Origin: Mycteria americana
Lineage: Eukaryota > Chordata > Aves > Ciconiiformes > Ciconiidae
DNA length: 64,000 nucleotides
Assembly: GCF_035582795.1 (NCBI RefSeq)
Contig: NC_134367.1
Location: 117,266,062 to 117,330,061, forward strand
Direction of reading: 5' to 3'
The position numbers and the translations under genes were made by a program. Shown here piece after piece: positions 8,627 to 32,690 of this stretch; positions within the stretch are counted from its first letter, which is position 1; every line of letters begins with the position of its first letter. Under the pieces are notes generated by a model that was not told the DNA's origin, did no database searches, and was given only the letters and a program-made list of their open reading frames with translations.

Positions 8627-8776
8627 TGTCTCGTCCCACTCGGTGGGTTGCGAGATGAGTGAATCTTTTCGATTCCCCGACTGTTTGAGTACCGACAAAA
8701 GCCGATCTCTGCTCGGCAGAGCCGCGTGGTCGGCAGAGTCACGACAATGACCCAGAGGAACAGTCTGGCCAGCAAC

Positions 8777-8782
8777 TTTATT
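8777..8782 (-). terminator. Provirus poly(A) signal AATAAA in LTR
   Basis: TTTATT on the plus strand, AATAAA on the minus, in the R/U5 half of the LTR and repeated in every LTR. In the array, transcripts from one unit would meet this signal in the next LTR downstream. Confidence 0.5.
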
Positions 8783-8904
8783 AACTGGCAAATCCCACAG
8801 ATGGACAAACTTCACGACCTGACGAGTTTAACGAACGAACAAAGGCGATTTGGCAATGGAGCTATTTTGCGGGCTTCCCGATCCCAAACTTGCATATATA
8901 TATT

Positions 8905-8975
8905 GGAAAAGCAGAGGAAGAGAGAAGAGAAGCAAGAAAAGGAAAGAAGGAGAGAGGAGAAAAGAGAAAGAAAAA
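8905..8975 (+). other. Homopurine tract within LTR
   Basis: About 70 bases of A and G with only two C interruptions on the plus strand (pyrimidine-rich on the transcribed minus strand). It occurs in all eight LTRs. Such tracts can form triplex DNA or slow replication. No other function is evident. Confidence 0.7.
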
Positions 8976-9334
8976 GTATCACCACCCTTGGATCCCGCGA
9001 TGACGATGACACACGTGGCAATCCTCCGGTGGTGGGCGTGCGCGCGCTTCCCTGGGGGGGCCCAAGCCTTTTATTGGCTAATCCCCGCCTCCAGGTACGC
9101 CCTTTCAGGGCTTATATGGTTCTTGTTCTAGAAAGTTCTCAATCTTCTGCGCAGGCGCTGGGGGAGGGGGGTGGTTGTGAGGGGTCTCTGGGGCGGTTGC
9201 AAGCCCCTTTCTCAGATGACCGCTGTCCATACATGGTCAGGTTTGGCAGAACCTGGAACCGCGCATCCTCCGACGCGCTCTCCACATCCCGCTCTTGCTC
9301 TCCCCCACCCCATGCTCGCAGACCTGCTGTCGCC

Positions 9335-9342
9335 ATGCAAAT
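9335..9342 (-). promoter_or_regulatory. POU octamer ATTTGCAT in LTR U3
   Basis: Perfect octamer on the minus strand, about 54 bases into U3, present in all eight LTRs (last copy at 32625-32632). It binds POU-family factors such as OCT4-type proteins in pluripotent cells. That matches the early-embryo expression described for the ENS family, but binding here is inferred. Confidence 0.6.
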
Positions 9343-9359
9343 AGCGCCTCAAATCGCCA

Positions 9360-9417
9360 CAATGTTTGAGACATTAACCCTTTCAGTCTCTCACACCACC
9401 CCGTGTCTCAAACATTG
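9360..9417. repeat. 14-bp perfect inverted repeat across U3 edge and polypurine tract
   Basis: CAATGTTTGAGACA (9360-9373, in U3) and its exact complement TGTCTCAAACATTG (9404-9417, internal) enclose the LTR start and the polypurine tract (plus 9396-9403 CCACCCCG). Present at all seven internal-LTR 3' junctions. In unit 4 the spacer differs by one base. LTR 8 has no partner arm and also has GAGGCA in place of GAGACA. Confidence 0.85.
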
Positions 9418-9434
9418 TCTATACAGTCTTCGTT

Positions 9435-10025
9435 TCACATAGAGAAGATTGAGAAGACACAGTTCACGAAATCTTCAACAAGAGTTGGCAGAGGGTCTTT
9501 GATTTTGTCTTCCAGGGTGGTGATATGAACATGAGAACAGCAGGAGAAAAGAGAATGAAAGCAGAAGCAAGCAGATAAACAATAGCTATGCCAGTCATAA
9601 GGAACAGAAATCAGGGTTATTCCAATTTGAATTAACCATTTCCCCCACCCTGTGAGTCCCCAGGATTGTAGGAGGGAAGCGAACGAAGATCTGGGGGCAC
9701 GCCCGTCGAAACAGTCTTTCGGCTGGAGTGATCGAAGTACTGACGTTGTGAGTGTAGTAGTAGTAGAGTGCAGTAGCAGAGTGCAGTAGTACTGGAGTTG
9801 TGAGATGGACAATGTTATACAACATTCTCCATCACTTAAATTCAACATCGAGTTTTTTGGGGCTTCTGCCACTTCCCAGCACACTCGCCAGGGAGGGGCA
9901 GTGAAACTGAAAACACGAGATGGACATAAGGATGGGATGACTAATCCACATTTCAGACCAGCGTGATCTTTCAATGCTAAGCAGGAATAAAATTTCCCAT
10001 TAGAACATCCCCAAACTAGTCCCAA
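9435..10025 (-). pseudogene. Env anchor remnant, unit 1
   Basis: The 3' part of the internal region has an open frame of 196 codons. Within it, WGKWLIQIGITLIS (nt 9647-9606) looks like the pre-anchor segment of a retroviral Env. The following hydrophobic anchor (about 22 residues ending in a basic tail) is read only in the next frame (nt about 9600-9530), so a frameshift has broken the gene. Nothing of the surface subunit was seen. The upstream half of this frame is low in recognisable features. The region 10026-10352 holds a GT-rich trinucleotide run and no gene. Confidence 0.5.
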
Positions 10026-10352
10026 GGGGGCTGGGGATATTCTAATTTTACAGGTATGTCAGGTTTTGCAGTGAGCGGCAGGCTCTGCAAAGGGTAGTGT
10101 GTACAGGGTATGAGAACATATATCTGTGGGAAGGATAACCACAACAAATACACATGTCCCTTACTCTCTCCAAGAGCCAGGTTTTTTTGGGGGGGTCCCC
10201 AGGACCAGTGTTATAGTTAAGAACTTTTTCAAGTTATACATAATATTGGGTAATGCAACAAAAACCACCACCACCACCAACAAAATCTCAATCCTTGTTC
10301 GGTTGATTGGAGAAGGGTAACACATATCCCTTGGTCAGTTCTACTCCAGATT

Positions 10353-11837
10353 CTAGTAAACACATGAATTGGTTCCCACACAAGCTTCTAAGGAATATGC
10401 CTTCCACTCCCCCCCGTGTCCTCCTTTCCCGGGGGAGAGGAGGACCATTGTCCACATGAAAAATCGTAAATACATATTAGGACTATTATTGCAATATTGG
10501 CAGTATTCATCGAGGTCCGACATTCCTCCGACGAGATTGCTATGTTTTAGCAGGCAACGGTCTGGTTCTCCCCCTGCAAAAGAGAAAGAAAACTCGGTCC
10601 CCTTTCGGACCGGTTTTAAAAGCAAGGGATTATCAGGAGGTCTTCCGACAGGTAGGCCTTTTAAAAGCTGATTGTCTAATCCCGTTCTCCTAACCGCAGC
10701 TTTACCCCTTTGTTCCCCTCCGGAGATTCCCACATTGCAGCTATAACTGATCAGCTCCTGCGCAACCCCTCCCCAGGTGAGGGGGAATTCCGCCAAAGTG
10801 GACTGCGTTTGGCTTCTCCGGGGTGTTAGCATTTCTGTTAAACGCTCCTGAATTGGGAGCGCTGCCCTTAGGTGGTCCTGGATTTGTATGGCATGTAGCT
10901 TTAGGGGGTCAGGGAGGCCCTTTACCAGGGTTTTCATTCGACTGGGGTCGGCTTTTAGCAACATCGGGGAGGGCTGATGGGGTGTTAAGTGCCGGTCATG
11001 CAGGAGCTGGAGGCAGGCGGCTTTCTGCACGCTCTCGGTAATCTGATCCAGTCCCGGAGTGGGGATGGTCACCGGATCTCCCCGTTCCAAGGGGTCCAGC
11101 CCTCCAGCCCTTTGAGTGAGGGACCAGGGGGCTCGAGTGTCGGGGACGGTTAGAAACACGCCTGGACCCCAGTATCCATGCGCCTCCTCCTCAGAAAGTT
11201 TAATTCTGTCCTCCCCCGTGAGGGAGACCCTCCACACATATTCTGTCTCCGTTTCTCTAGGGAGCCTACTATATCCATCATGTAATTTCACCAATTCAGT
11301 TGCACTATAGGGTATTTCTTTTGTTATGATTTCTGGCGCGGTATCGGCACCCCCTTCATATTGGAATTCTGTTTTAGTAAGTGGGCGAAGTTGGGGAGCA
11401 GTTCTCTCATCATGTTGGCACTTTGCCCGTTCCATTTCCTCCCAGGGGTAGCGGCCAGCTACCCCTCTGTCAGCCAGCTCGCGTTCCTTGAAGAGACCGC
11501 AGCGCCCACATTCGCTCACCAAATCCTCCCTCCGCGCCTCCGCTAGCGCCCACCGCAATTCGCGCTCCCTGACAAAAGCGTCGCGCAACTGATTCTGCAA
11601 CCTAATTTCCGATCGCACCCATTTTTCCCGCTCAGCTTCCAGCTCCGCTTGCAAACTTTTACCCGAATCTTGGGACGATTCGCTCGCGTCTCGCTTAACC
11701 CATTCTACCGTGCACTTATATTTCTGCGCTGCCGTCAGCGCAGCTACCAAAACACCCAAAACAACAGCTTTTAACAACTCTAACAACAAAGGGGAGCAGT
11801 CCAGATCAGGCTGAACCCAGGAAGCCATGATCATCAT
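10353..11837 (-). CDS. ENS-1: ENS-1/ERNI-like gag-derived protein, unit 1
   Basis: 494 codons from ATG at 11837, with other in-frame ATGs at codons 2 and 4. The third gives 491 residues, close to the 490 recalled for chicken ENS-1/ERNI. Residues 17-37 are hydrophobic (LLLELLKAVVLGVLVAALTA) and may anchor the protein or act as a signal. Residues about 57-115 are a charged coiled coil (SLQAELEAEREKWVRSEIRL and on). From about 150 the chain looks gag-like: RPLTKTE, TETEYVWRVSLTG, GYWGPGVFLT, then ESVQKAACLQLLHDR and KGLPDP (capsid-like). The C-terminal 70 residues lack zinc knuckles and may read across a deletion. The ENS family is reported in early embryo and stem cells, and ERNI in neural induction. 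Driven presumably by the LTR at 11955. This copy has His322. The ORF is fully open. Confidence 0.72.
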   Translation of the reverse strand: MMIMASWVQPDLDCSPLLLELLKAVVLGVLVAALTAAQKYKCTVEWVKRDASESSQDSGKSLQAELEAEREKWVRSEIRLQNQLRDAFVRERELRWALAEARREDLVSECGRCGLFKERELADRGVAGRYPWEEMERAKCQHDERTAPQLRPLTKTEFQYEGGADTAPEIITKEIPYSATELVKLHDGYSRLPRETETEYVWRVSLTGEDRIKLSEEEAHGYWGPGVFLTVPDTRAPWSLTQRAGGLDPLERGDPVTIPTPGLDQITESVQKAACLQLLHDRHLTPHQPSPMLLKADPSRMKTLVKGLPDPLKLHAIQIQDHLRAALPIQERLTEMLTPRRSQTQSTLAEFPLTWGGVAQELISYSCNVGISGGEQRGKAAVRRTGLDNQLLKGLPVGRPPDNPLLLKPVRKGTEFSFSFAGGEPDRCLLKHSNLVGGMSDLDEYCQYCNNSPNMYLRFFMWTMVLLSPGKGGHGGEWKAYSLEACVGTNSCVY

Positions 11838-11930
11838 CTGCCGGAGGACTCGGACTCAGCCGATTCACGTCCTCCCTTCTCGACTCAATCGATATCCCCT
11901 CCCTGTTCCTCTCACTGATCAAGTCAGGGA

Positions 11931-11948
11931 ATCCCACTTCTGACACCA
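11931..11948 (-). other. Provirus primer binding site, tRNA-Leu type (unit 1)
   Basis: On the minus strand TGGTGTCAGAAGTGGGAT starts six bases after the LTR end. It matches the usual tRNA-Leu primer site. Other copies: 15259-15276, 18587-18604, 21912-21929, 25237-25254, 28565-28582, 31893-31910. The leader between here and the ORF is about 93 bases. Confidence 0.85.
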
Positions 11949-11954
11949 AATTAA

Positions 11955-12723
11955 TGTCTCGTCCCACTCGGTGGGTTGCGAGATGAGTGAATCTTTTCGA
12001 TTCCCCGACTGTTTGAGTACCGACAAAAGCCGATCTCTGCTCGGCAGAGCCGCGTGGTCGGCAGAGTCACGACAATGACCCAGAGGAACAGTCTGGCCAG
12101 CAACTTTATTAACTGGCAAATCCCACAGATGGACAAACTTCACGACCTGACGAGTTTAACGAACGAACAAAGGCGATTTGGCAATGGAGCTATTTTGCGG
12201 GCTTCCCGATCCCAAACTTGCATATATATATTGGAAAAGCAGAGGAAGAGAGAAGAGAAGCAAGAAAAGGAAAGAAGGAGAGAGGAGAAAAGAGAAAGAA
12301 AAAGTATCACCACCCTTGGATCCCGCGATGACGATGACACACGTGGCAATCCTCCGGTGGTGGGCGTGCGCGCGCTTCCCTGGGGGGGCCCAAGCCTTTT
12401 ATTGGCTAATCCCCGCCTCCAGGTACGCCCTTTCAGGGCTTATATGGTTCTTGTTCTAGAAAGTTCTCAATCTTCTGCGCAGGCGCTGGGGGAGGGGGGT
12501 GGTTGTGAGGGGTCTCTGGGGCGGTTGCAAGCCCCTTTCTCAGATGACCGCTGTCCATACATGGTCAGGTTTGGCAGAACCTGGAACCGCGCATCCTCCG
12601 ACGCGCTCTCCACATCCCGCTCTTGCTCTCCCCCACCCCATGCTCGCAGACCTGCTGTCGCCATGCAAATAGCGCCTCAAATCGCCACAATGTTTGAGAC
12701 ATTAACCCTTTCAGTCTCTCACA
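11955..12723 (-). repeat. Provirus LTR 2
   Basis: 769 bp, shared between unit 1 (as its 5' LTR) and unit 2 (as its 3' LTR). Same elements as LTR 1. I saw no private change. Confidence 0.9.
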
Positions 12724-12762
12724 CCACCCCGTGTCTCAAACATTGTCTATACAGTCTTCGTT

Positions 12763-13353
12763 TCACATAGAGAAGATTGAGAAGACACAGTTCACGAAAT
12801 CTTCAACAAGAGTTGGCAGAGGGTCTTTGATTTTGTCTTCCAGGGTGGTGATATGAACATGAGAACAGCAGGAGAAAAGAGAATGAAAGCAGAAGCAAGC
12901 AGATAAACAATAGCTATGCCAGTCATAAGGAACAGAAATCAGGGTTATTCCAATTTGAATTAACCATTTCCCCCACCCTGTGAGTCCCCAGGATTGTAGG
13001 AGGGAAGCGAACGAAGATCTGGGGGCACGCCCGTCGAAACAGTCTTTCGGCTGGAGTGATCGAAGTACTGACGTTGTGAGTGTAGTAGTAGTAGAGTGCA
13101 GTAGCAGAGTGCAGTAGTACTGGAGTTGTGAGATGGACAATGTTATACAACATTCTCCATCACTTAAATTCAACATCGAGTTTTTTGGGGCTTCTGCCAC
13201 TTCCCAGCACACTCGCCAGGGAGGGGCAGTGAAACTGAAAACACGAGATGGACATAAGGATGGGATGACTAATCCACATTTCAGACCAGCGTGATCTTTC
13301 AATGCTAAGCAGGAATAAAATTTCCCATTAGAACATCCCCAAACTAGTCCCAA
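12763..13353 (-). pseudogene. Env anchor remnant, unit 2
   Basis: Copy of the unit 1 remnant without visible change, with the same frameshift before the hydrophobic segment. Confidence 0.5.
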
Positions 13354-13680
13354 GGGGGCTGGGGATATTCTAATTTTACAGGTATGTCAGGTTTTGCAGT
13401 GAGCGGCAGGCTCTGCAAAGGGTAGTGTGTACAGGGTATGAGAACATATATCTGTGGGAAGGATAACCACAACAAATACACATGTCCCTTACTCTCTCCA
13501 AGAGCCAGGTTTTTTTGGGGGGGTCCCCAGGACCAGTGTTATAGTTAAGAACTTTTTCAAGTTATACATAATATTGGGTAATGCAACAAAAACCACCACC
13601 ACCACCAACAAAATCTCAATCCTTGTTCGGTTGATTGGAGAAGGGTAACACATATCCCTTGGTCAGTTCTACTCCAGATT

Positions 13681-15165
13681 CTAGTAAACACATGAATTGG
13701 TTCCCACACAAGCTTCTAAGGAATATGCCTTCCACTCCCCCCCGTGTCCTCCTTTCCCGGGGGAGAGGAGGACCATTGTCCACATGAAAAATCGTAAATA
13801 CATATTAGGACTATTATTGCAATATTGGCAGTATTCATCGAGGTCCGACATTCCTCCGACGAGATTGCTATGTTTTAGCAGGCAACGGTCTGGTTCTCCC
13901 CCTGCAAAAGAGAAAGAAAACTCGGTCCCCTTTCGGACCGGTTTTAAAAGCAAGGGATTATCAGGAGGTCTTCCGACAGGTAGGCCTTTTAAAAGCTGAT
14001 TGTCTAATCCCGTTCTCCTAACCGCAGCTTTACCCCTTTGTTCCCCTCCGGAGATTCCCACATTGCAGCTATAACTGATCAGCTCCTGCGCAACCCCTCC
14101 CCAGGTGAGGGGGAATTCCGCCAAAGTGGACTGCGTTTGGCTTCTCCGGGGTGTTAGCATTTCTGTTAAACGCTCCTGAATTGGGAGCGCTGCCCTTAGG
14201 TGGTCCTGGATTTGTATGGCATGTAGCTTTAGGGGGTCAGGGAGGCCCTTTACCAGGGTTTTCATTCGACTGGGGTCGGCTTTTAGCAACATCGGGGAGG
14301 GCTGATGGGGTGTTAAGTGCCGGTCATGCAGGAGCTGGAGGCAGGCGGCTTTCTGCACGCTCTCGGTAATCTGATCCAGTCCCGGAGTGGGGATGGTCAC
14401 CGGATCTCCCCGTTCCAAGGGGTCCAGCCCTCCAGCCCTTTGAGTGAGGGACCAGGGGGCTCGAGTGTCGGGGACGGTTAGAAACACGCCTGGACCCCAG
14501 TATCCATGCGCCTCCTCCTCAGAAAGTTTAATTCTGTCCTCCCCCGTGAGGGAGACCCTCCACACATATTCTGTCTCCGTTTCTCTAGGGAGCCTACTAT
14601 ATCCATCATGTAATTTCACCAATTCAGTTGCACTATAGGGTATTTCTTTTGTTATGATTTCTGGCGCGGTATCGGCACCCCCTTCATATTGGAATTCTGT
14701 TTTAGTAAGTGGGCGAAGTTGGGGAGCAGTTCTCTCATCATGTTGGCACTTTGCCCGTTCCATTTCCTCCCAGGGGTAGCGGCCAGCTACCCCTCTGTCA
14801 GCCAGCTCGCGTTCCTTGAAGAGACCGCAGCGCCCACATTCGCTCACCAAATCCTCCCTCCGCGCCTCCGCTAGCGCCCACCGCAATTCGCGCTCCCTGA
14901 CAAAAGCGTCGCGCAACTGATTCTGCAACCTAATTTCCGATCGCACCCATTTTTCCCGCTCAGCTTCCAGCTCCGCTTGCAAACTTTTACCCGAATCTTG
15001 GGACGATTCGCTCGCGTCTCGCTTAACCCATTCTACCGTGCACTTATATTTCTGCGCTGCCGTCAGCGCAGCTACCAAAACACCCAAAACAACAGCTTTT
15101 AACAACTCTAACAACAAAGGGGAGCAGTCCAGATCAGGCTGAACCCAGGAAGCCATGATCATCAT
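13681..15165 (-). CDS. ENS-1: ENS-1/ERNI-like protein, unit 2
   Basis: Intact 494-codon copy with the same protein as unit 1, including His322. Units 1 and 2 also share the silent-strand marker CTTAGGTGG (units 3-7 have CTTAGGCGG), which is the codon change behind His/Arg322. Confidence 0.72.
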   Translation of the reverse strand: MMIMASWVQPDLDCSPLLLELLKAVVLGVLVAALTAAQKYKCTVEWVKRDASESSQDSGKSLQAELEAEREKWVRSEIRLQNQLRDAFVRERELRWALAEARREDLVSECGRCGLFKERELADRGVAGRYPWEEMERAKCQHDERTAPQLRPLTKTEFQYEGGADTAPEIITKEIPYSATELVKLHDGYSRLPRETETEYVWRVSLTGEDRIKLSEEEAHGYWGPGVFLTVPDTRAPWSLTQRAGGLDPLERGDPVTIPTPGLDQITESVQKAACLQLLHDRHLTPHQPSPMLLKADPSRMKTLVKGLPDPLKLHAIQIQDHLRAALPIQERLTEMLTPRRSQTQSTLAEFPLTWGGVAQELISYSCNVGISGGEQRGKAAVRRTGLDNQLLKGLPVGRPPDNPLLLKPVRKGTEFSFSFAGGEPDRCLLKHSNLVGGMSDLDEYCQYCNNSPNMYLRFFMWTMVLLSPGKGGHGGEWKAYSLEACVGTNSCVY

Positions 15166-15282
15166 CTGCCGGAGGACTCGGACTCAGCCGATTCACGTCC
15201 TCCCTTCTCGACTCAATCGATATCCCCTCCCTGTTCCTCTCACTGATCAAGTCAGGGAATCCCACTTCTGACACCAAATTAA

Positions 15283-16051
15283 TGTCTCGTCCCACTCGGT
15301 GGGTTGCGAGATGAGTGAATCTTTTCGATTCCCCGACTGTTTGAGTACCGACAAAAGCCGATCTCTGCTCGGCAGAGCCGCGTGGTCGGCAGAGTCACGA
15401 CAATGACCCAGAGGAACAGTCTGGCCAGCAACTTTATTAACTGGCAAATCCCACAGATGGACAAACTTCACGACCTGACGAGTTTAACGAACGAACAAAG
15501 GCGATTTGGCAATGGAGCTATTTTGCGGGCTTCCCGATCCCAAACTTGCATATATATATTGGAAAAGCAGAGGAAGAGAGAAGAGAAGCAAGAAAAGGAA
15601 AGAAGGAGAGAGGAGAAAAGAGAAAGAAAAAGTATCACCACCCTTGGATCCCGCGATGACGATGACACACGTGGCAATCCTCCGGTGGTGGGCGTGCGCG
15701 CGCTTCCCTGGGGGGGCCCAAGCCTTTTATTGGCTAATCCCCGCCTCCAGGTACGCCCTTTCAGGGCTTATATGGTTCTTGTTCTAGAAAGTTCTCAATC
15801 TTCTGCGCAGGCGCTGGGGGAGGGGGGTGGTTGTGAGGGGTCTCTGGGGCGGTTGCAAGCCCCTTTCTCAGATGACCGCTGTCCATACATGGTCAGGTTT
15901 GGCAGAACCTGGAACCGCGCATCCTCCGACGCGCTCTCCACATCCCGCTCTTGCTCTCCCCCACCCCATGCTCGCAGACCTGCTGTCGCCATGCAAATAG
16001 CGCCTCAAATCGCCACAATGTTTGAGACATTAACCCTTTCAGTCTCTCACA
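15283..16051 (-). repeat. Provirus LTR 3
   Basis: 769 bp. No private change seen relative to LTR 1. Confidence 0.9.
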
Positions 16052-16090
16052 CCACCCCGTGTCTCAAACATTGTCTATACAGTCTTCGTT

Positions 16091-16681
16091 TCACATAGAG
16101 AAGATTGAGAAGACACAGTTCACGAAATCTTCAACAAGAGTTGGCAGAGGGTCTTTGATTTTGTCTTCCAGGGTGGTGATATGAACATGAGAACAGCAGG
16201 AGAAAAGAGAATGAAAGCAGAAGCAAGCAGATAAACAATAGCTATGCCAGTCATAAGGAACAGAAATCAGGGTTATTCCAATTTGAATTAACCATTTCCC
16301 CCACCCTGTGAGTCCCCAGGATTGTAGGAGGGAAGCGAACGAAGATCTGGGGGCACGCCCGTCGAAACAGTCTTTCGGCTGGAGTGATCGAAGTACTGAC
16401 GTTGTGAGTGTAGTAGTAGTAGAGTGCAGTAGCAGAGTGCAGTAGTACTGGAGTTGTGAGATGGACAATGTTATACAACATTCTCCATCACTTAAATTCA
16501 ACATCGAGTTTTTTGGGGCTTCTGCCACTTCCCAGCACACTCGCCAGGGAGGGGCAGTGAAACTGAAAACACGAGATGGACATAAGGATGGGATGACTAA
16601 TCCACATTTCAGACCAGCGTGATCTTTCAATGCTAAGCAGGAATAAAATTTCCCATTAGAACATCCCCAAACTAGTCCCAA
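16091..16681 (-). pseudogene. Env anchor remnant, unit 3
   Basis: As in unit 1, with the TTG triplet near 16402 retained that units 4 and 5 lack. Confidence 0.5.
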
Positions 16682-17008
16682 GGGGGCTGGGGATATTCTA
16701 ATTTTACAGGTATGTCAGGTTTTGCAGTGAGCGGCAGGCTCTGCAAAGGGTAGTGTGTACAGGGTATGAGAACATATATCTGTGGGAAGGATAACCACAA
16801 CAAATACACATGTCCCTTACTCTCTCCAAGAGCCAGGTTTTTTTGGGGGGGTCCCCAGGACCAGTGTTATAGTTAAGAACTTTTTCAAGTTATACATAAT
16901 ATTGGGTAATGCAACAAAAACCACCACCACCACCAACAAAATCTCAATCCTTGTTCGGTTGATTGGAGAAGGGTAACACATATCCCTTGGTCAGTTCTAC
17001 TCCAGATT

Positions 17009-18493
17009 CTAGTAAACACATGAATTGGTTCCCACACAAGCTTCTAAGGAATATGCCTTCCACTCCCCCCCGTGTCCTCCTTTCCCGGGGGAGAGGAGGA
17101 CCATTGTCCACATGAAAAATCGTAAATACATATTAGGACTATTATTGCAATATTGGCAGTATTCATCGAGGTCCGACATTCCTCCGACGAGATTGCTATG
17201 TTTTAGCAGGCAACGGTCTGGTTCTCCCCCTGCAAAAGAGAAAGAAAACTCGGTCCCCTTTCGGACCGGTTTTAAAAGCAAGGGATTATCAGGAGGTCTT
17301 CCGACAGGTAGGCCTTTTAAAAGCTGATTGTCTAATCCCGTTCTCCTAACCGCAGCTTTACCCCTTTGTTCCCCTCCGGAGATTCCCACATTGCAGCTAT
17401 AACTGATCAGCTCCTGCGCAACCCCTCCCCAGGTGAGGGGGAATTCCGCCAAAGTGGACTGCGTTTGGCTTCTCCGGGGTGTTAGCATTTCTGTTAAACG
17501 CTCCTGAATTGGGAGCGCTGCCCTTAGGCGGTCCTGGATTTGTATGGCATGTAGCTTTAGGGGGTCAGGGAGGCCCTTTACCAGGGTTTTCATTCGACTG
17601 GGGTCGGCTTTTAGCAACATCGGGGAGGGCTGATGGGGTGTTAAGTGCCGGTCATGCAGGAGCTGGAGGCAGGCGGCTTTCTGCACGCTCTCGGTAATCT
17701 GATCCAGTCCCGGAGTGGGGATGGTCACCGGATCTCCCCGTTCCAAGGGGTCCAGCCCTCCAGCCCTTTGAGTGAGGGACCAGGGGGCTCGAGTGTCGGG
17801 GACGGTTAGAAACACGCCTGGACCCCAGTATCCATGCGCCTCCTCCTCAGAAAGTTTAATTCTGTCCTCCCCCGTGAGGGAGACCCTCCACACATATTCT
17901 GTCTCCGTTTCTCTAGGGAGCCTACTATATCCATCATGTAATTTCACCAATTCAGTTGCACTATAGGGTATTTCTTTTGTTATGATTTCTGGCGCGGTAT
18001 CGGCACCCCCTTCATATTGGAATTCTGTTTTAGTAAGTGGGCGAAGTTGGGGAGCAGTTCTCTCATCATGTTGGCACTTTGCCCGTTCCATTTCCTCCCA
18101 GGGGTAGCGGCCAGCTACCCCTCTGTCAGCCAGCTCGCGTTCCTTGAAGAGACCGCAGCGCCCACATTCGCTCACCAAATCCTCCCTCCGCGCCTCCGCT
18201 AGCGCCCACCGCAATTCGCGCTCCCTGACAAAAGCGTCGCGCAACTGATTCTGCAACCTAATTTCCGATCGCACCCATTTTTCCCGCTCAGCTTCCAGCT
18301 CCGCTTGCAAACTTTTACCCGAATCTTGGGACGATTCGCTCGCGTCTCGCTTAACCCATTCTACCGTGCACTTATATTTCTGCGCTGCCGTCAGCGCAGC
18401 TACCAAAACACCCAAAACAACAGCTTTTAACAACTCTAACAACAAAGGGGAGCAGTCCAGATCAGGCTGAACCCAGGAAGCCATGATCATCAT
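17009..18493 (-). CDS. ENS-1: ENS-1/ERNI-like protein, unit 3
   Basis: Intact 494-codon copy with Arg322, the form shared by units 3-7. Confidence 0.72.
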   Translation of the reverse strand: MMIMASWVQPDLDCSPLLLELLKAVVLGVLVAALTAAQKYKCTVEWVKRDASESSQDSGKSLQAELEAEREKWVRSEIRLQNQLRDAFVRERELRWALAEARREDLVSECGRCGLFKERELADRGVAGRYPWEEMERAKCQHDERTAPQLRPLTKTEFQYEGGADTAPEIITKEIPYSATELVKLHDGYSRLPRETETEYVWRVSLTGEDRIKLSEEEAHGYWGPGVFLTVPDTRAPWSLTQRAGGLDPLERGDPVTIPTPGLDQITESVQKAACLQLLHDRHLTPHQPSPMLLKADPSRMKTLVKGLPDPLKLHAIQIQDRLRAALPIQERLTEMLTPRRSQTQSTLAEFPLTWGGVAQELISYSCNVGISGGEQRGKAAVRRTGLDNQLLKGLPVGRPPDNPLLLKPVRKGTEFSFSFAGGEPDRCLLKHSNLVGGMSDLDEYCQYCNNSPNMYLRFFMWTMVLLSPGKGGHGGEWKAYSLEACVGTNSCVY

Positions 18494-18610
18494 CTGCCGG
18501 AGGACTCGGACTCAGCCGATTCACGTCCTCCCTTCTCGACTCAATCGATATCCCCTCCCTGTTCCTCTCACTGATCAAGTCAGGGAATCCCACTTCTGAC
18601 ACCAAATTAA

Positions 18611-19379: not shown

Positions 19380-19418
19380 CCACCCCATGTCTCAAACATT
19401 GTCTATACAGTCTTCGTT

Positions 19419-21818: not shown

Positions 21819-21935
21819 CTGCCGGAGGACTCGGACTCAGCCGATTCACGTCCTCCCTTCTCGACTCAATCGATATCCCCTCCCTGTTCCTCTCACTGAT
21901 CAAGTCAGGGAATCCCACTTCTGACACCAAATTAA

Positions 21936-22704: not shown

Positions 22705-22743
22705 CCACCCCGTGTCTCAAACATTGTCTATACAGTCTTCGTT

Positions 22744-23331: not shown

Positions 23332-23658
23332 GGGGGCTGGGGATATTCTAATTTTACAGGTATGTCAGGTTTTGCAGTGAGCGGCAGGCTCTGCAAAGGG
23401 TAGTGTGTACAGGGTATGAGAACATATATCTGTGGGAAGGATAACCACAACAAATACACATGTCCCTTACTCTCTCCAAGAGCCAGGTTTTTTTGGGGGG
23501 GTCCCCAGGACCAGTGTTATAGTTAAGAACTTTTTCAAGTTATACATAATATTGGGTAATGCAACAAAAACCACCACCACCAACAACAAAATCTCAATCC
23601 TTGTTCGGTTGATTGGAGAAGGGTAACACATATCCCTTGGTCAGTTCTACTCCAGATT

Positions 23659-25143
23659 CTAGTAAACACATGAATTGGTTCCCACACAAGCTTCTAAGGA
23701 ATATGCCTTCCACTCCCCCCCGTGTCCTCCTTTCCCGGGGGAGAGGAGGACCATTGTCCACATGAAAAATCGTAAATACATATTAGGACTATTATTGCAA
23801 TATTGGCAGTATTCATCGAGGTCCGACATTCCTCCGACGAGATTGCTATGTTTTAGCAGGCAACGGTCTGGTTCTCCCCCTGCAAAAGAGAAAGAAAACT
23901 CGGTCCCCTTTCGGACCGGTTTTAAAAGCAAGGGATTATCAGGAGGTCTTCCGACAGGTAGGCCTTTTAAAAGCTGATTGTCTAATCCCGTTCTCCTAAC
24001 CGCAGCTTTACCCCTTTGTTCCCCTCCGGAGATTCCCACATTGCAGCTATAACTGATCAGCTCCTGCGCAACCCCTCCCCAGGTGAGGGGGAATTCCGCC
24101 AAAGTGGACTGCGTTTGGCTTCTCCGGGGTGTTAGCATTTCTGTTAAACGCTCCTGAATTGGGAGCGCTGCCCTTAGGCGGTCCTGGATTTGTATGGCAT
24201 GTAGCTTTAGGGGGTCAGGGAGGCCCTTTACCAGGGTTTTCATTCGACTGGGGTCGGCTTTTAGCAACATCGGGGAGGGCTGATGGGGTGTTAAGTGCCG
24301 GTCATGCAGGAGCTGGAGGCAGGCGGCTTTCTGCACGCTCTCGGTAATCTGATCCAGTCCCGGAGTGGGGATGGTCACCGGATCTCCCCGTTCCAAGGGG
24401 TCCAGCCCTCCAGCCCTTTGAGTGAGGGACCAGGGGGCTCGAGTGTCGGGGACGGTTAGAAACACGCCTGGACCCCAGTATCCATGCGCCTCCTCCTCAG
24501 AAAGTTTAATTCTGTCCTCCCCCGTGAGGGAGACCCTCCACACATATTCTGTCTCCGTTTCTCTAGGGAGCCTACTATATCCATCATGTAATTTCACCAA
24601 TTCAGTTGCACTATAGGGTATTTCTTTTGTTATGATTTCTGGCGCGGTATCGGCACCCCCTTCATATTGGAATTCTGTTTTAGTAAGTGGGCGAAGTTGG
24701 GGAGCAGTTCTCTCATCATGTTGGCACTTTGCCCGTTCCATTTCCTCCCAGGGGTAGCGGCCAGCTACCCCTCTGTCAGCCAGCTCGCGTTCCTTGAAGA
24801 GACCGCAGCGCCCACATTCGCTCACCAAATCCTCCCTCCGCGCCTCCGCTAGCGCCCACCGCAATTCGCGCTCCCTGACAAAAGCGTCGCGCAACTGATT
24901 CTGCAACCTAATTTCCGATCGCACCCATTTTTCCCGCTCAGCTTCCAGCTCCGCTTGCAAACTTTTACCCGAATCTTGGGACGATTCGCTCGCGTCTCGC
25001 TTAACCCATTCTACCGTGCACTTATATTTCTGCGCTGCCGTCAGCGCAGCTACCAAAACACCCAAAACAACAGCTTTTAACAACTCTAACAACAAAGGGG
25101 AGCAGTCCAGATCAGGCTGAACCCAGGAAGCCATGATCATCAT
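23659..25143 (-). CDS. ENS-1: ENS-1/ERNI-like protein, unit 5
   Basis: Intact 494-codon copy with Arg322. Just beyond its 3' end (about 23570-23590) the CCA trinucleotide run reads ACCAACAAC where other units read ACCACCAAC. Confidence 0.72.
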   Translation of the reverse strand: MMIMASWVQPDLDCSPLLLELLKAVVLGVLVAALTAAQKYKCTVEWVKRDASESSQDSGKSLQAELEAEREKWVRSEIRLQNQLRDAFVRERELRWALAEARREDLVSECGRCGLFKERELADRGVAGRYPWEEMERAKCQHDERTAPQLRPLTKTEFQYEGGADTAPEIITKEIPYSATELVKLHDGYSRLPRETETEYVWRVSLTGEDRIKLSEEEAHGYWGPGVFLTVPDTRAPWSLTQRAGGLDPLERGDPVTIPTPGLDQITESVQKAACLQLLHDRHLTPHQPSPMLLKADPSRMKTLVKGLPDPLKLHAIQIQDRLRAALPIQERLTEMLTPRRSQTQSTLAEFPLTWGGVAQELISYSCNVGISGGEQRGKAAVRRTGLDNQLLKGLPVGRPPDNPLLLKPVRKGTEFSFSFAGGEPDRCLLKHSNLVGGMSDLDEYCQYCNNSPNMYLRFFMWTMVLLSPGKGGHGGEWKAYSLEACVGTNSCVY

Positions 25144-25260
25144 CTGCCGGAGGACTCGGACTCAGCCGATTCACGTCCTCCCTTCTCGACTCAATCGATA
25201 TCCCCTCCCTGTTCCTCTCACTGATCAAGTCAGGGAATCCCACTTCTGACACCAAATTAA

Positions 25261-26029
25261 TGTCTCGTCCCACTCGGTGGGTTGCGAGATGAGTGAATCT
25301 TTTCGATTCCCCGACTGTTTGAGTACCGACAAAAGCCGATCTCTGCTCGGCAGAGCCGCGTGGTCGGCAGAGTCACGACAATGACCCAGAGGAACAGTCT
25401 GGCCAGCAACTTTATTAACTGGCAAATCCCACAGATGGACAAACTTCACGACCTGACGAGTTTAACGAACGAACAAAGGCGATTTGGCAATGGAGCTATT
25501 TTGCGGGCTTCCCGATCCCAAACTTGCATATATATATTGGAAAAGCAGAGGAAGAGAGAAGAGAAGCAAGAAAAGGAAAGAAGGAGAGAGGAGAAAAGAG
25601 AAAGAAAAAGTATCACCACCCTTGGATCCCGCGATGACGATGACACACGTGGCAATCCTCTGGTGGTGGGCGTGCGCGCGCTTCCCTGGGGGGGCCCAAG
25701 CCTTTTATTGGCTAATCCCCGCCTCCAGGTACGCCCTTTCAGGGCTTATATGGTTCTTGTTCTAGAAAGTTCTCAATCTTCTGCGCAGGCGCTGGGGGAG
25801 GGGGGTGGTTGTGAGGGGTCTCTGGGGCGGTTGCAAGCCCCTTTCTCAGATGACCGCTGTCCATACATGGTCAGGTTTGGCAGAACCTGGAACCGCGCAT
25901 CCTCCGACGCGCTCTCCACATCCCGCTCTTGCTCTCCCCCACCCCATGCTCGCAGACCTGCTGTCGCCATGCAAATAGCGCCTCAAATCGCCACAATGTT
26001 TGAGACATTAACCCTTTCAGTCTCTCACA
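25261..26029 (-). repeat. Provirus LTR 6
   Basis: 769 bp. Carries CCTCTGGTGG in place of CCTCCGGTGG (near 25660), shared only with LTR 7. Confidence 0.9.
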
Positions 26030-26068
26030 CCACCCCGTGTCTCAAACATTGTCTATACAGTCTTCGTT

Positions 26069-26659
26069 TCACATAGAGAAGATTGAGAAGACACAGTTCA
26101 CGAAATCTTCAACAAGAGTTGGCAGAGGGTCTTTGATTTTGTCTTCCAGGGTGGTGATATGAACATGAGAACAGCAGGAGAAAAGAGAATGAAAGCAGAA
26201 GCAAGCAGATAAACAATAGCTATGCCAGTCATAAGGAACAGAAATCAGGGTTATTCCAATTTGAATTAACCATTTCCCCCACCCTGTGAGTCCCCAGGAT
26301 TGTAGGAGGGAAGCGAACGAAGATCTGGGGGCACGCCCGTCGAAACAGTCTTTCGGCTGGAGTGATCGAAGTACTGACGTTGTGAGTGTAGTAGTAGTAG
26401 AGTGCAGTAGCAGAGTGCAGTAGTACTGGAGTTGTGAGATGGACAATGTTATACAACATTCTCCATCACTTAAATTCAACATCGAGTTTTTTGGGGCTTC
26501 TGCCACTTCCCAGCACACTCGCCAGGGAGGGGCAGTGAAACTGAAAACACGAGATGGACATAAGGATGGGATGACTAATCCACATTTCAGACCAGCGTGA
26601 TCTTTCAATGCTAAGCAGGAATAAAATTTCCCATTAGAACATCCCCAAACTAGTCCCAA
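26069..26659 (-). pseudogene. Env anchor remnant, unit 6
   Basis: Full-length form with the TTG triplet retained, as in units 1-3 and 7. Confidence 0.5.
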
Positions 26660-26986
26660 GGGGGCTGGGGATATTCTAATTTTACAGGTATGTCAGGTTT
26701 TGCAGTGAGCGGCAGGCTCTGCAAAGGGTAGTGTGTACAGGGTATGAGAACATATATCTGTGGGAAGGATAACCACAACAAATACACATGTCCCTTACTC
26801 TCTCCAAGAGCCAGGTTTTTTTGGGGGGGTCCCCAGGACCAGTGTTATAGTTAAGAACTTTTTCAAGTTATACATAATATTGGGTAATGCAACAAAAACC
26901 ACCACCACCACCAACAAAATCTCAATCCTTGTTCGGTTGATTGGAGAAGGGTAACACATATCCCTTGGTCAGTTCTACTCCAGATT

Positions 26987-28471
26987 CTAGTAAACACATG
27001 AATTGGTTCCCACACAAGCTTCTAAGGAATATGCCTTCCACTCCCCCCCGTGTCCTCCTTTCCCGGGGGAGAGGAGGACCATTGTCCACATGAAAAATCG
27101 TAAATACATATTAGGACTATTATTGCAATATTGGCAGTATTCATCGAGGTCCGACATTCCTCCGACGAGATTGCTATGTTTTAGCAGGCAACGGTCTGGT
27201 TCTCCCCCTGCAAAAGAGAAAGAAAACTCGGTCCCCTTTCGGACCGGTTTTAAAAGCAAGGGATTATCAGGAGGTCTTCCGACAGGTAGGCCTTTTAAAA
27301 GCTGATTGTCTAATCCCGTTCTCCTAACCGCAGCTTTACCCCTTTGTTCCCCTCCGGAGATTCCCACATTGCAGCTATAACTGATCAGCTCCTGCGCAAC
27401 CCCTCCCCAGGTGAGGGGGAATTCCGCCAAAGTGGACTGCGTTTGGCTTCTCCGGGGTGTTAGCATTTCTGTTAAACGCTCCTGAATTGGGAGCGCTGCC
27501 CTTAGGCGGTCCTGGATTTGTATGGCATGTAGCTTTAGGGGGTCAGGGAGGCCCTTTACCAGGGTTTTCATTCGACTGGGGTCGGCTTTTAGCAACATCG
27601 GGGAGGGCTGATGGGGTGTTAAGTGCCGGTCATGCAGGAGCTGGAGGCAGGCGGCTTTCTGCACGCTCTCGGTAATCTGATCCAGTCCCGGAGTGGGGAT
27701 GGTCACCGGATCTCCCCGTTCCAAGGGGTCCAGCCCTCCAGCCCTTTGAGTGAGGGACCAGGGGGCTCGAGTGTCGGGGACGGTTAGAAACACGCCTGGA
27801 CCCCAGTATCCATGCGCCTCCTCCTCAGAAAGTTTAATTCTGTCCTCCCCCGTGAGGGAGACCCTCCACACATATTCTGTCTCCGTTTCTCTAGGGAGCC
27901 TACTATATCCATCATGTAATTTCACCAATTCAGTTGCACTATAGGGTATTTCTTTTGTTATGATTTCTGGCGCGGTATCGGCACCCCCTTCATATTGGAA
28001 TTCTGTTTTAGTAAGTGGGCAAAGTTGGGGAGCAGTTCTCTCATCATGTTGGCACTTTGCCCGTTCCATTTCCTCCCAGGGGTAGCGGCCAGCTACCCCT
28101 CTGTCAGCCAGCTCGCGTTCCTTGAAGAGACCGCAGCGCCCACATTCGCTCACCAAATCCTCCCTCCGCGCCTCCGCTAGCGCCCACCGCAATTCGCGCT
28201 CCCTGACAAAAGCGTCGCGCAACTGATTCTGCAACCTAATTTCCGATCGCACCCATTTTTCCCGCTCAGCTTCCAGCTCCGCTTGCAAACTTTTACCCGA
28301 ATCTTGGGACGATTCGCTCGCGTCTCGCTTAACCCATTCTACCGTGCACTTATATTTCTGCGCTGCCGTCAGCGCAGCTACCAAAACACCCAAAACAACA
28401 GCTTTTAACAACTCTAACAACAAAGGGGAGCAGTCCAGATCAGGCTGAACCCAGGAAGCCATGATCATCAT
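26987..28471 (-). CDS. ENS-1: ENS-1/ERNI-like protein, unit 6
   Basis: Intact 494-codon copy with one private change, Cys in place of Arg151 (plus strand GGGCAAAG near 28019, GGGCGAAG elsewhere), at the start of the gag-like RPLTKTE motif. Confidence 0.72.
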   Translation of the reverse strand: MMIMASWVQPDLDCSPLLLELLKAVVLGVLVAALTAAQKYKCTVEWVKRDASESSQDSGKSLQAELEAEREKWVRSEIRLQNQLRDAFVRERELRWALAEARREDLVSECGRCGLFKERELADRGVAGRYPWEEMERAKCQHDERTAPQLCPLTKTEFQYEGGADTAPEIITKEIPYSATELVKLHDGYSRLPRETETEYVWRVSLTGEDRIKLSEEEAHGYWGPGVFLTVPDTRAPWSLTQRAGGLDPLERGDPVTIPTPGLDQITESVQKAACLQLLHDRHLTPHQPSPMLLKADPSRMKTLVKGLPDPLKLHAIQIQDRLRAALPIQERLTEMLTPRRSQTQSTLAEFPLTWGGVAQELISYSCNVGISGGEQRGKAAVRRTGLDNQLLKGLPVGRPPDNPLLLKPVRKGTEFSFSFAGGEPDRCLLKHSNLVGGMSDLDEYCQYCNNSPNMYLRFFMWTMVLLSPGKGGHGGEWKAYSLEACVGTNSCVY

Positions 28472-28588
28472 CTGCCGGAGGACTCGGACTCAGCCGATTC
28501 ACGTCCTCCCTTCTCGACTCAATCGATATCCCCTCCCTGTTCCTCTCACTGATCAAGTCAGGGAATCCCACTTCTGACACCAAATTAA

Positions 28589-29357
28589 TGTCTCGTCCCA
28601 CTCGGTGGGTTGCGAGATGAGTGAATCTTTTCGATTCCCCGACTGTTTGAGTACCGACAAAAGCCGATCTCTGCTCGGCAGAGCCGCGTGGTCGGCAGAG
28701 TCACGACAATGACCCAGAGGAACAGTCTGGCCAGCAACTTTATTAACTGGCAAATCCCACAGATGGACAAACTTCACGACCTGACGAGTTTAACGAACGA
28801 ACAAAGGCGATTTGGCAATGGAGCTATTTTGCGGGCTTCCCGATCCCAAACTTGCATATATATATTGGAAAAGCAGAGGAAGAGAGAAGAGAAGCAAGAA
28901 AAGGAAAGAAGGAGAGAGGAGAAAAGAGAAAGAAAAAGTATCACCACCCTTGGATCCCGCGATGACGATGACACACGTGGCAATCCTCTGGTGGTGGGCG
29001 TGCGCGCGCTTCCCTGGGGGGGCCCAAGCCTTTTATTGGCTAATCCCCGCCTCCAGGTACGCCCTTTCAGGGCTTATATGGTTCTTGTTCTAGAAAGTTC
29101 TCAATCTTCTGCGCAGGCGCTGGGGGAGGGGGGTGGTTGTGAGGGGTCTCTGGGGCGGTTGCAAGCCCCTTTCTCAGATGACCGCTGTCCATACATGGTC
29201 AGGTTTGGCAGAACCTGGAACCGCGCATCCTCCGACGCGCTCTCCACATCCCGCTCTTGCTCTCCCCCACCCCATGCTCGCAGACCTGCTGTCGCCATGC
29301 AAATAGCGCCTCAAATCGCCACAATGTTTGAGACATTAACCCTTTCAGTCTCTCACA
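28589..29357 (-). repeat. Provirus LTR 7
   Basis: 769 bp with the CCTCTGGTGG variant of LTR 6. Confidence 0.9.
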
Positions 29358-29396
29358 CCACCCCGTGTCTCAAACATTGTCTATACAGTCTTCGTT

Positions 29397-29987
29397 TCAC
29401 ATAGAGAAGATTGAGAAGACACAGTTCACGAAATCTTCAACAAGAGTTGGCAGAGGGTCTTTGATTTTGTCTTCCAGGGTGGTGATATGAACATGAGAAC
29501 AGCAGGAGAAAAGAGAATGAAAGCAGAAGCAAGCAGATAAACAATAGCTATGCCAGTCATAAGGAACAGAAATCAGGGTTATTCCAATTTGAATTAACCA
29601 TTTCCCCCACCCTGTGAGTCCCCAGGATTGTAGGAGGGAAGCGAACGAAGATCTGGGGGCACGCCCGTCGAAACAGTCTTTCGGCTGGAGTGATCGAAGT
29701 ACTGACGTTGTGAGTGTAGTAGTAGTAGAGTGCAGTAGCAGAGTGCAGTAGTACTGGAGTTGTGAGATGGACAATGTTATACAACATTCTCCATCACTTA
29801 AATTCAACATCGAGTTTTTTGGGGCTTCTGCCACTTCCCAGCACACTCGCCAGGGAGGGGCAGTGAAACTGAAAACACGAGATGGACATAAGGATGGGAT
29901 GACTAATCCACATTTCAGACCAGCGTGATCTTTCAATGCTAAGCAGGAATAAAATTTCCCATTAGAACATCCCCAAACTAGTCCCAA
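29397..29987 (-). pseudogene. Env anchor remnant, unit 7
   Basis: Same as unit 1, frameshift included. Confidence 0.5.
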
Positions 29988-30314
29988 GGGGGCTGGGGAT
30001 ATTCTAATTTTACAGGTATGTCAGGTTTTGCAGTGAGCGGCAGGCTCTGCAAAGGGTAGTGTGTACAGGGTATGAGAACATATATCTGTGGGAAGGATAA
30101 CCACAACAAATACACATGTCCCTTACTCTCTCCAAGAGCCAGGTTTTTTTGGGGGGGTCCCCAGGACCAGTGTTATAGTTAAGAACTTTTTCAAGTTATA
30201 CATAATATTGGGTAATGCAACAAAAACCACCACCACCACCAACAAAATCTCAATCCTTGTTCGGTTGATTGGAGAAGGGTAACACATATCCCTTGGTCAG
30301 TTCTACTCCAGATT

Positions 30315-31799
30315 CTAGTAAACACATGAATTGGTTCCCACACAAGCTTCTAAGGAATATGCCTTCCACTCCCCCCCGTGTCCTCCTTTCCCGGGGGAGA
30401 GGAGGACCATTGTCCACATGAAAAATCGTAAATACATATTAGGACTATTATTGCAATATTGGCAGTATTCATCGAGGTCCGACATTCCTCCGACGAGATT
30501 GCTATGTTTTAGCAGGCAACGGTCTGGTTCTCCCCCTGCAAAAGAGAAAGAAAACTCGGTCCCCTTTCGGACCGGTTTTAAAAGCAAGGGATTATCAGGA
30601 GGTCTTCCGACAGGTAGGCCTTTTAAAAGCTGATTGTCTAATCCCGTTCTCCTAACCGCAGCTTTACCCCTTTGTTCCCCTCCGGAGATTCCCACATTGC
30701 AGCTATAACTGATCAGCTCCTGCGCAACCCCTCCCCAGGTGAGGGGGAATTCCGCCAAAGTGGACTGCGTTTGGCTTCTCCGGGGTGTTAGCATTTCTGT
30801 TAAACGCTCCTGAATTGGGAGCGCTGCCCTTAGGCGGTCCTGGATTTGTATGGCATGTAGCTTTAGGGGGTCAGGGAGGCCCTTTACCAGGGTTTTCATT
30901 CGACTGGGGTCGGCTTTTAGCAACATCGGGGAGGGCTGATGGGGTGTTAAGTGCCGGTCATGCAGGAGCTGGAGGCAGGCGGCTTTCTGCACGCTCTCGG
31001 TAATCTGATCCAGTCCCGGAGTGGGGATGGTCACCGGATCTCCCCGTTCCAAGGGGTCCAGCCCTCCAGCCCTTTGAGTGAGGGACCAGGGGGCTCGAGT
31101 GTCGGGGACGGTTAGAAACACGCCTGGACCCCAGTATCCATGCGCCTCCTCCTCAGAAAGTTTAATTCTGTCCTCCCCCGTGAGGGAGACCCTCCACACA
31201 TATTCTGTCTCCGTTTCTCTAGGGAGCCTACTATATCCATCATGTAATTTCACCAATTCAGTTGCACTATAGGGTATTTCTTTTGTTATGATTTCTGGCG
31301 CGGTATCGGCACCCCCTTCATATTGGAATTCTGTTTTAGTAAGTGGGCGAAGTTGGGGAGCAGTTCTCTCATCATGTTGGCACTTTGCCCGTTCCATTTC
31401 CTCCCAGGGGTAGCGGCCAGCTACCCCTCTGTCAGCCAGCTCGCGTTCCTTGAAGAGACCGCAGCGCCCACATTCGCTCACCAAATCCTCCCTCCGCGCC
31501 TCCGCTAGCGCCCACCGCAATTCGCGCTCCCTGACAAAAGCGTCGCGCAACTGATTCTGCAACCTAATTTCCGATCGCACCCATTTTTCCCGCTCAGCTT
31601 CCAGCTCCGCTTGCAAACTTTTACCCGAATCTTGGGACGATTCGCTCGCGTCTCGCTTAACCCATTCTACCGTGCACTTATATTTCTGCGCTGCCGTCAG
31701 CGCAGCTACCAAAACACCCAAAACAACAGCTTTTAACAACTCTAACAACAAAGGGGAGCAGTCCAGATCAGGCTGAACCCAGGAAGCCATGATCATCAT
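30315..31799 (-). CDS. ENS-1: ENS-1/ERNI-like protein, unit 7
   Basis: Intact 494-codon copy with Arg322 and Arg151. It is the first unit in the direction of transcription, downstream of the outermost 5' LTR. Confidence 0.72.
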   Translation of the reverse strand: MMIMASWVQPDLDCSPLLLELLKAVVLGVLVAALTAAQKYKCTVEWVKRDASESSQDSGKSLQAELEAEREKWVRSEIRLQNQLRDAFVRERELRWALAEARREDLVSECGRCGLFKERELADRGVAGRYPWEEMERAKCQHDERTAPQLRPLTKTEFQYEGGADTAPEIITKEIPYSATELVKLHDGYSRLPRETETEYVWRVSLTGEDRIKLSEEEAHGYWGPGVFLTVPDTRAPWSLTQRAGGLDPLERGDPVTIPTPGLDQITESVQKAACLQLLHDRHLTPHQPSPMLLKADPSRMKTLVKGLPDPLKLHAIQIQDRLRAALPIQERLTEMLTPRRSQTQSTLAEFPLTWGGVAQELISYSCNVGISGGEQRGKAAVRRTGLDNQLLKGLPVGRPPDNPLLLKPVRKGTEFSFSFAGGEPDRCLLKHSNLVGGMSDLDEYCQYCNNSPNMYLRFFMWTMVLLSPGKGGHGGEWKAYSLEACVGTNSCVY

Positions 31800-31916
31800 C
31801 TGCCGGAGGACTCGGACTCAGCCGATTCACGTCCTCCCTTCTCGACTCAATCGATATCCCCTCCCTGTTCCTCTCACTGATCAAGTCAGGGAATCCCACT
31901 TCTGACACCAAATTAA

Positions 31917-32685
31917 TGTCTCGTCCCACTCGGTGGGTTGCGAGATGAGTGAATCTTTTCGATTCCCCGACTGTTTGAGTACCGACAAAAGCCGATCTCT
32001 GCTCGGCAGAGCCGCGTGGTCGGCAGAGTCACGACAATGACCCAGAGGAACAGTCTGGCCAGCAACTTTATTAACTGGCAAATCCCACAGATGGACAAAC
32101 TTCACGACCTGACGAGTTTAACGAACGAACAAAGGCGATTTGGCAATGGAGCTATTTTGCGGGCTTCCCGATCCCAAACTTGCATATATATATTGGAAAA
32201 GCAGAGGAAGAGAGAAGAGAAGCAAGAAAAGGAAAGAAGGAGAGAGGAGAAAAGAGAAAGAAAAAGTATCACCACCCTTGGATCCCGCGATGACGATGAC
32301 ACACGTGGCAATCCTCCGGTGGTGGGCGTGCGCGCGCTTCCCTGGGGGGGCCCAAGCCTTTTATTGGCTAATCCCCGCCTCCAGGTACACCCTTTCAGGG
32401 CTTATATGGTTCTTGTTCTAGAAAGTTCTCAATCTTCTGCGCAGGCGCTGGGGGAGGGGGGTGGTTGTGAGGGGTCTCTGGGGCGGTTGCAAGCCCCTTT
32501 CTCAGATGACCGCTGTCCATACATGGTCAGGTTTGGCAGAACCTGGAACCGCGCATCCTCCGACGCGCTCTCCACATCCCGCTCTTGCTCTCCCCCACCC
32601 CATGCACGCAGACCTGCTGTCGCCATGCAAATAGCGCCTCAAATCGCCACAATGTTTGAGGCATTAACCCTTTCAGTCTCTCACA
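31917..32685 (-). repeat. Provirus LTR 8 (outermost 5' LTR)
   Basis: 769 bp, ending at TCTCACA directly before the right target duplication. It is the most diverged LTR: CATGCACGCAG (CATGCTCGCAG elsewhere), TTTGAGGCATT (TTTGAGACATT elsewhere) and the GGTACACCC form shared with LTR 4. As the end copy it has only one neighbour for exchange. Confidence 0.92.
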
Positions 32686-32690
32686 GAGGC
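32686..32690 (+). other. Target site duplication, right copy (GAGGC)
   Basis: GAGGC after the last LTR base, followed by ATCACTGTGTATTTC, the satellite continuation in the same phase as the left side. Confidence 0.9.

Follow-up and report, generated by a model that had tools for sequence, protein, structure and literature searches.

Structure of the array

The DNA analysed here, hereafter the window, is a stretch of 64,000 nucleotides of contig NC_134367.1 of the stork Mycteria americana (assembly GCF_035582795.1, positions 117,266,062 to 117,330,061 of the forward strand). Between window positions 8627 and 32685 it carries a tandem array of an endogenous retrovirus (ERV), oriented on the minus strand and lying inside a satellite with a 178-bp monomer. 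Eight long terminal repeats (LTRs) of 769 bp alternate strictly with seven internal regions, five of 2,559 bp and two of 2,556 bp, in a head-to-tail arrangement with shared LTRs. A full LTR is present at both ends of the array, and the 178-bp satellite adjoins it on either side. These observations confirm an initial annotation, made by a model from the sequence letters, which had reported seven head-to-tail proviruses sharing LTRs and a block beginning and ending with a full LTR; the bounds that it gave for the array were exact. It had also proposed a period of 3,328 bp, equal to one LTR plus one internal region. The composition of the unit is as proposed, but the period is not uniform: five units are spaced at 3328 and two at 3325, since internal regions 4 and 5 have each lost 3 bp by deletion. 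The features of the array are the following (window coordinates; ORF, open reading frame).

8622..8626, unstranded: target-site duplication GAGGC, left copy
8627..9395, minus: LTR1, outer proviral 3' LTR
9396..11954, minus: internal region 1, 2559 bp; gag ORF 10353-11855
11955..12723, minus: LTR2
12724..15282, minus: internal region 2, 2559 bp, identical to region 1; gag ORF 13681-15183
15283..16051, minus: LTR3
16052..18610, minus: internal region 3, 2559 bp; gag ORF 17009-18511 (500 codons, stop to stop)
18611..19379, minus: LTR4, chimeric; columns 690 and 745 of LTR1 type, column 473 of LTR8 type
19380..21935, minus: internal region 4, 2556 bp, with a 3-bp deletion; gag ORF 20334-21836
21936..22704, minus: LTR5
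22705..25260, minus: internal region 5, 2556 bp, with the 3-bp deletion of region 4; gag ORF 23659-25161
25261..26029, minus: LTR6
26030..28588, minus: internal region 6, 2559 bp; gag ORF 26987-28489
28589..29357, minus: LTR7, variant at column 401 in common with LTR6
29358..31916, minus: internal region 7, 2559 bp, identical to region 3; gag ORF 30315-31817
31893..31910, minus: primer binding site beside the outer proviral 5' LTR, read beside LTR4 and placed here from the identical junctions; also beside LTRs 2-7
31917..32685, minus: LTR8, outer proviral 5' LTR, the most diverged of the eight
32686..32690, unstranded: target-site duplication GAGGC, right copy

Read on the plus strand, all eight LTRs begin with TGTCTC and end with TCACA; in the orientation of the element, on the minus strand, they start with TGTGAG and finish with GAGACA. 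The first 20 bases of the LTR matched eight times, always exactly, at the starts listed above, and never in 100 shuffles. All 14 boundaries between an LTR and an internal region are identical, and neither satellite nor an LTR-LTR junction is found between units. Junctions of two LTRs were also rejected on the spacing, which takes one of its two values throughout. With a tandem unit of more than 1 kb, seven units of 3.3 kb as counted in one assembly, the array has the unit size of a macrosatellite at this one locus. The statement of the initial annotation that a retrovirus is turning into a tandem repeat family exceeds one locus and was overstated.

Insertion site and surrounding satellite

The 5-bp target-site duplication GAGGC occurs as a single pair, on the outer sides of the array only. 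When the array and one GAGGC were removed in silico, identity at lag 178 across the joint was 0.949; undisturbed satellite gave a median of 0.944 (range 0.247-1.0, 174 stretches of the right block). Keeping the second GAGGC lowered this identity to 0.202 and shifted the peak to lag 183. The empty site is in phase with the 178-bp repeat, and the satellite was therefore interrupted once, within one monomer. Taken with the single outer duplication, this argues for one insertion followed by amplification through the LTRs. The array combines a single insertion site, shared LTRs and variants common to copies, the last described in the next section.

The satellite itself forms two blocks.

6157..8626, unstranded: 178-bp satellite, left block, about 14 copies (tandem repeat search)
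32688..64000, unstranded: 178-bp satellite, right block, about 176 copies to the end of the window (limits from Tandem Repeats Finder)

Monomers carrying an exact 15-base anchor were compared, and pairs below 0.6 identity were excluded as out of register. Mean pairwise identity was 0.936 in the right block (147 monomers, 10,532 of 10,731 pairs kept), 0.847 in the more diverged left block (7 monomers, 18 of 21 pairs kept) and 0.882 between the blocks (939 of 1,029 pairs kept). A higher divergence of the left block is what is expected close to the edge of a satellite array. The units of the ERV array are far more alike than the satellite monomers, and the array is thus either much younger or much better homogenised.

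A derivation of the satellite from the ERV was rejected, since no 18-base word of unit 3 occurs elsewhere in the window beyond about 8601-32690 on either strand. Comparison with 3.3 kb of satellite gave one 21-base match of 86% for the internal region (E 0.30) and none for the LTR.

Variation among the units

Four columns vary among the eight LTRs, and four substitution columns and one 3-bp deletion among the seven internal regions. Of these nine variable places, four are common to exactly two copies, the sharing pairs being internal regions 1 and 2, internal regions 4 and 5, LTRs 6 and 7, and LTRs 4 and 8. Seven units inserted together and then left undisturbed would be expected to show mostly private mutations; sharing is seen instead, which indicates that exchange or duplication continued after insertion. 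Three of the four pairs are adjacent (chance of three or more, 0.061), and this adjacency is only suggestive. No difference separates units 1 and 2 over 3,328 bases, nor internal regions 3 and 7.

Five of the eight substitutions are changes of CG to TG or CA, which suggests that the locus may be methylated in the germline. A simulation of repeated CpG mutation, assuming equal rates among CpGs, reproduced the three shared CpG changes together in 1 of 200,000 trials.

If the 3' LTR of one chromatid exchanged unequally with the 5' LTR of its partner, the inner LTRs left behind would be expected to be of 3' type in their 5' part and of 5' type in their 3' part. Three sites separate the outer LTRs, at proviral positions 25, 80 and 297. 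Five of the six inner LTRs are wholly of the 3'-LTR type at these sites (BBB), and LTR4 is of 3', 3' and 5' type (BBA); an order forbidden by exchange from 3' LTR to 5' LTR was not found among the six. The chimeric LTR4 fits the order predicted for unequal crossing-over.

A comparison of the two outer LTRs shows 3 differences in 769 bases, which corresponds to 2.0, 1.0 or 0.65 million years at assumed rates of 1.0, 1.9 or 3.0e-9 substitutions per site per year; LTR-LTR exchange would turn such figures into underestimates.

Origin of the array

We propose that one provirus of the ENS-1/ERNI family integrated on the minus strand, inside the 178-bp satellite and about 2.5 kb from the satellite edge. 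Sister chromatids or homologues would then have paired out of register through its two LTRs and exchanged there. Every exchange would gain or lose one LTR-plus-internal unit, whereas the outer LTR ends and, beyond them, the duplicated target site and the satellite would stay as they were, and repeated rounds could have produced seven units and held them nearly identical. A single insertion followed by repeated LTR-LTR exchange is probably the origin of the array. The initial annotation had also invoked recombination between LTRs, and this is the best explanation for the single outer duplication, the in-phase empty site, the variants present in two copies and the one chimeric LTR. We infer that the process was crossing-over between LTRs and not capture of circular DNA, that it took place in the germline and that it required several steps.

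Several points weigh against this origin. A pre-formed multimer with later exchange gives an identical picture, and all of the evidence comes from the assembly of one individual. The adjacency of the sharing pairs is weak by itself. CpG rates are in reality uneven, so that the simulated frequency is too small and the true figure is higher. LTR4 is the only informative chimera, and its shared base, a CpG change, could have arisen twice. In addition, the two changes seen in LTR8 only may be younger than the array, and the order test would then be uninformative.

A multimer formed beforehand, either from joined one-LTR circles or by reverse transcription of a tandem transcript, and inserted whole by integrase has a small but appreciable chance of being the source of the array. 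The outer LTRs and the single 5-bp duplication would look no different under this route, and a study of tandem LTR-retrotransposons in rice regards the multimer route and recombination both as possible (PMC11899658). Independent divergence of the units would be expected, yet four of the nine variable places are common to two copies, so that exchange after insertion is needed even for a multimer of this kind. Recombination by homology of a one-LTR circular DNA into the resident provirus, in place of exchange between chromatids, would produce the same unit boundaries and near-identical copies, and an integrase-independent route in yeast is cited in PMC11899658. We consider it unlikely, however, as neighbours share variants (internal regions 1 and 2, internal regions 4 and 5, LTRs 6 and 7) and local duplication is simpler.

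It is quite improbable that the array, or the count of seven, is an artefact of assembly. The identity of units 1 and 2 and of internal regions 3 and 7 makes a miscount possible, but the remaining units differ in the variants they carry, the flanking satellite keeps its phase, and a false join would need to invent the sharing pattern. Satellites can gather insertions and recombine, and this general tendency speaks for separate insertions, nested insertions or duplication via misaligned satellite, to which we nevertheless assign a negligible probability. Separate or nested insertions were rejected because the 14 boundaries are alike and the units are separated by neither duplications nor satellite; misaligned satellite would have left satellite between the units. 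A more far-reaching idea, which we hold to be very improbable, is that the array is at once a satellite in the making and a gene cluster, in which seven copies of a shortened ERNI-like Gag, all with an LTR at their side, would vary in number by LTR exchange and set protein dose, with selection acting on copy number. If it were true, the dose would concern a relative of a chick protein that acts as a regulator of HP1-gamma and of neural timing.

Element type and Gag

On the minus strand an 18-base primer binding site, TGGTGTCAGAAGTGGGAT, lies six bases after the end of the LTR (read beside LTR4); it is presumably the complement of the 3' end of a tRNA-Leu. We take a 5-bp duplication and a tRNA-Leu primer site to be ERV-L-like (class III) features, and the duplication GAGGC has this length.

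A frame of 500 codons, stop to stop, is open in all seven units, and the seven frames encode three protein versions. The presence of the open frame in every unit was rejected as a sign of selection: the frames differ at two sites and are uninformative in this respect, because at the age of the array there has hardly been time for decay.

In the search with the array Gag, Mycteria americana accounts for the first ten matches (72-91% identity, covering 71-96% of the query) and Ciconia boyciana for the eleventh (82% over 53%), among the best 120 of 164 matches. Galliform relatives mostly show 41-44% over 69-73% among the matches listed, and one of them, P0081, shows 52% over 48%. For the env-like ORF of the neighbouring element, P0122 of Ciconia boyciana is a match of 90% identity over 79%. 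The galliform origin assumed in the initial annotation was therefore abandoned, and the array Gag and the env-like ORF both appear to point to Ciconiidae; the searches scored only the 7,998 and 7,994 candidates with most shared words, and the species itself is not fixed thereby.

The array Gag is 42% identical over 70% of its length to P0050 from Excalfactoria, which contains GLPTVRLE, the HP1 box published for chicken ENS-1/ERNI (PMC3958431). On the strength of this relative, the array ORF is by sequence an ERNI-type Gag core. In an alignment of 22 hits with the query, the array Gag is without a stretch near the N-terminus, as are P0001, P0002, P0003 and P0006, and its tail, which in relatives contains the HP1 box, has been replaced. 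An HP1 box was absent near the C-terminal end, the sole P.V.[LM] match in the unit 3 ORF being PGVFL within the core. Some stork relatives, P0002, P0009, P0011 and P0018, retain the HP1-box region in altered form.

An N-terminal coiled coil is supported by prediction, with a helix at 20-116 and blocks of residues 21-110 at 80-97 in the predicted local distance difference test (pLDDT). The structure model as a whole has a mean pLDDT of 58.6, and residues 194-264 are below 50; the Gag sequence matched eight solved structures, all weakly (best E 0.6). ERNI Gag consists of a coiled coil plus a capsid (PMC10996621), and the model is compatible with such an architecture without proving it.

Pol or env was not recognised in the unit, either with Pfam or by comparison with the fetched proteins. 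The Pfam set comprised 13 ORFs, a part of those of unit 3, and gave only matches below the cut-off, the 500-codon Gag frame included. Internal region 3 was compared with 199 fetched proteins; 124 of them gave matches, which form 128 stretches. All but two of the stretches (126 of 128) fall within the gag part and its tail; the remaining two, of 21 and 18 residues, lie between gag and the 3' LTR and come from the Mycteria proteins P0007 and P0010. The 79 proteins fetched by the env-like query included four that matched internal region 3, all inside gag. A reverse transcriptase was likewise not found among the 13 ORFs or with the 199 proteins, and tRNA and Rfam scans gave no hits. According to its Pfam labels, P0010 joins an ERNI-type Gag to a reverse transcriptase, and it also matches the far end of the internal region; for this reason the unit looks like a deletion derivative. 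The element appears to be a gag-only, probably non-autonomous member of the avian ENS-1/ERNI retrovirus family.

Neighbouring ERV

A second ENS-like ERV is located at 44-4606 on the plus strand, opposite to the array. It contains a stretch resembling the ERNI N-terminus (matches at 95-283), a 21-base tandem repeat at 416-585 that would encode heptads, a retroviral protease (PF00077, E 3.9e-05) and a short reverse-transcriptase-like start. After a gap there follows an open frame of 823 codons; among the proteins related to it are some that bear the name envelope glycoprotein. Between this ERV and the edge of the satellite, at 5192-5246, lies a short imperfect repeat with a period of 27 and 2.1 copies.

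Significance

With one insertion and intact edges, the array is a clean example of a stage that has often been suggested to come early when satellites arise from retroelements. Its units are young enough for part of the exchange history to be read from single variants. Compared among individuals at one site, such arrays could show the rate at which units are gained and lost by LTR exchange in a satellite. A gag of ENS-1/ERNI type, studied in chick development, has here been multiplied in place in a distant bird lineage.

Comparison with known systems

In rice, 266 candidate tandem LTR-retrotransposons were reported in the pangenome and 28 clear structures in one reference genome, 10 of the 28 with a perfect 5-nt target-site duplication (PMC11899658). 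For two loci studied in detail a single insertion was concluded and the mechanism was left open. As in the stork array, these plant tandems alternate internal regions with shared LTRs and have an LTR at both ends. They differ in that TLI2 has two internal regions and three LTRs, and in that the detailed loci are plant elements for which the excerpted description gives no satellite location, whereas the stork array consists of seven units of a vertebrate ERV inside a satellite. Closer in setting is an ERV of kangaroo centromeres, cited in PMC11899658, in which tandem units share internal LTRs and LTR recombination was proposed; both the retrovirus and the host are different.

The human HERV-K tandems at 7p22.1 and 6q14.1 also have three LTRs around two internal regions, and are present in part of the human population, polymorphic with a single form (PMC11807958). 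They have two units and not seven, and the excerpt does not mention a satellite location. K111 and K222 resemble the array as ERVs in human centromeric or pericentromeric repeats that were copied by recombination; unlike it, they are spread among loci and chromosomes and are not described in the excerpt as one shared-LTR array (PMC4425911). A review counts LTR recombination among the routes from elements to satellites, and cites a 16-copy hobo array in Drosophila from McGurk and Barbash (PMC12628747). A limited search of the open-access literature, covering titles and the openings of abstracts and no proof of absence, found no shared-LTR ERV array in a bird.

The element itself can be compared with chicken ENS-1/ERNI, with which it has in common an ERNI-type Gag core and a long N-terminal coiled coil, the latter as predicted by the model (PMC3362752, PMC3958431, PMC10996621); the chicken motif PLIKTEY corresponds to PLTKTEF in the array Gag. 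Unlike the chicken element, the array Gag is without the N-terminal stretch and the HP1-box tail, and the element is in tandem and belongs to a stork lineage. Chicken ENS-1 is a non-autonomous form of ENS-3 (Soprano), which has been placed beside ERV-L (PMC10996621), and the stork unit, if it is a deletion derivative, would be comparable to ENS-1 in relation to ENS-3.

The initial annotation was right that two-unit tandems are known, but its claim was overstated, as it omitted the shared-LTR tandems of rice and of kangaroo centromeres. Given these plant and kangaroo precedents and those of HERV-K, arrays of this kind were already known; what is new here is the locus, its length, its clean history and the element family.

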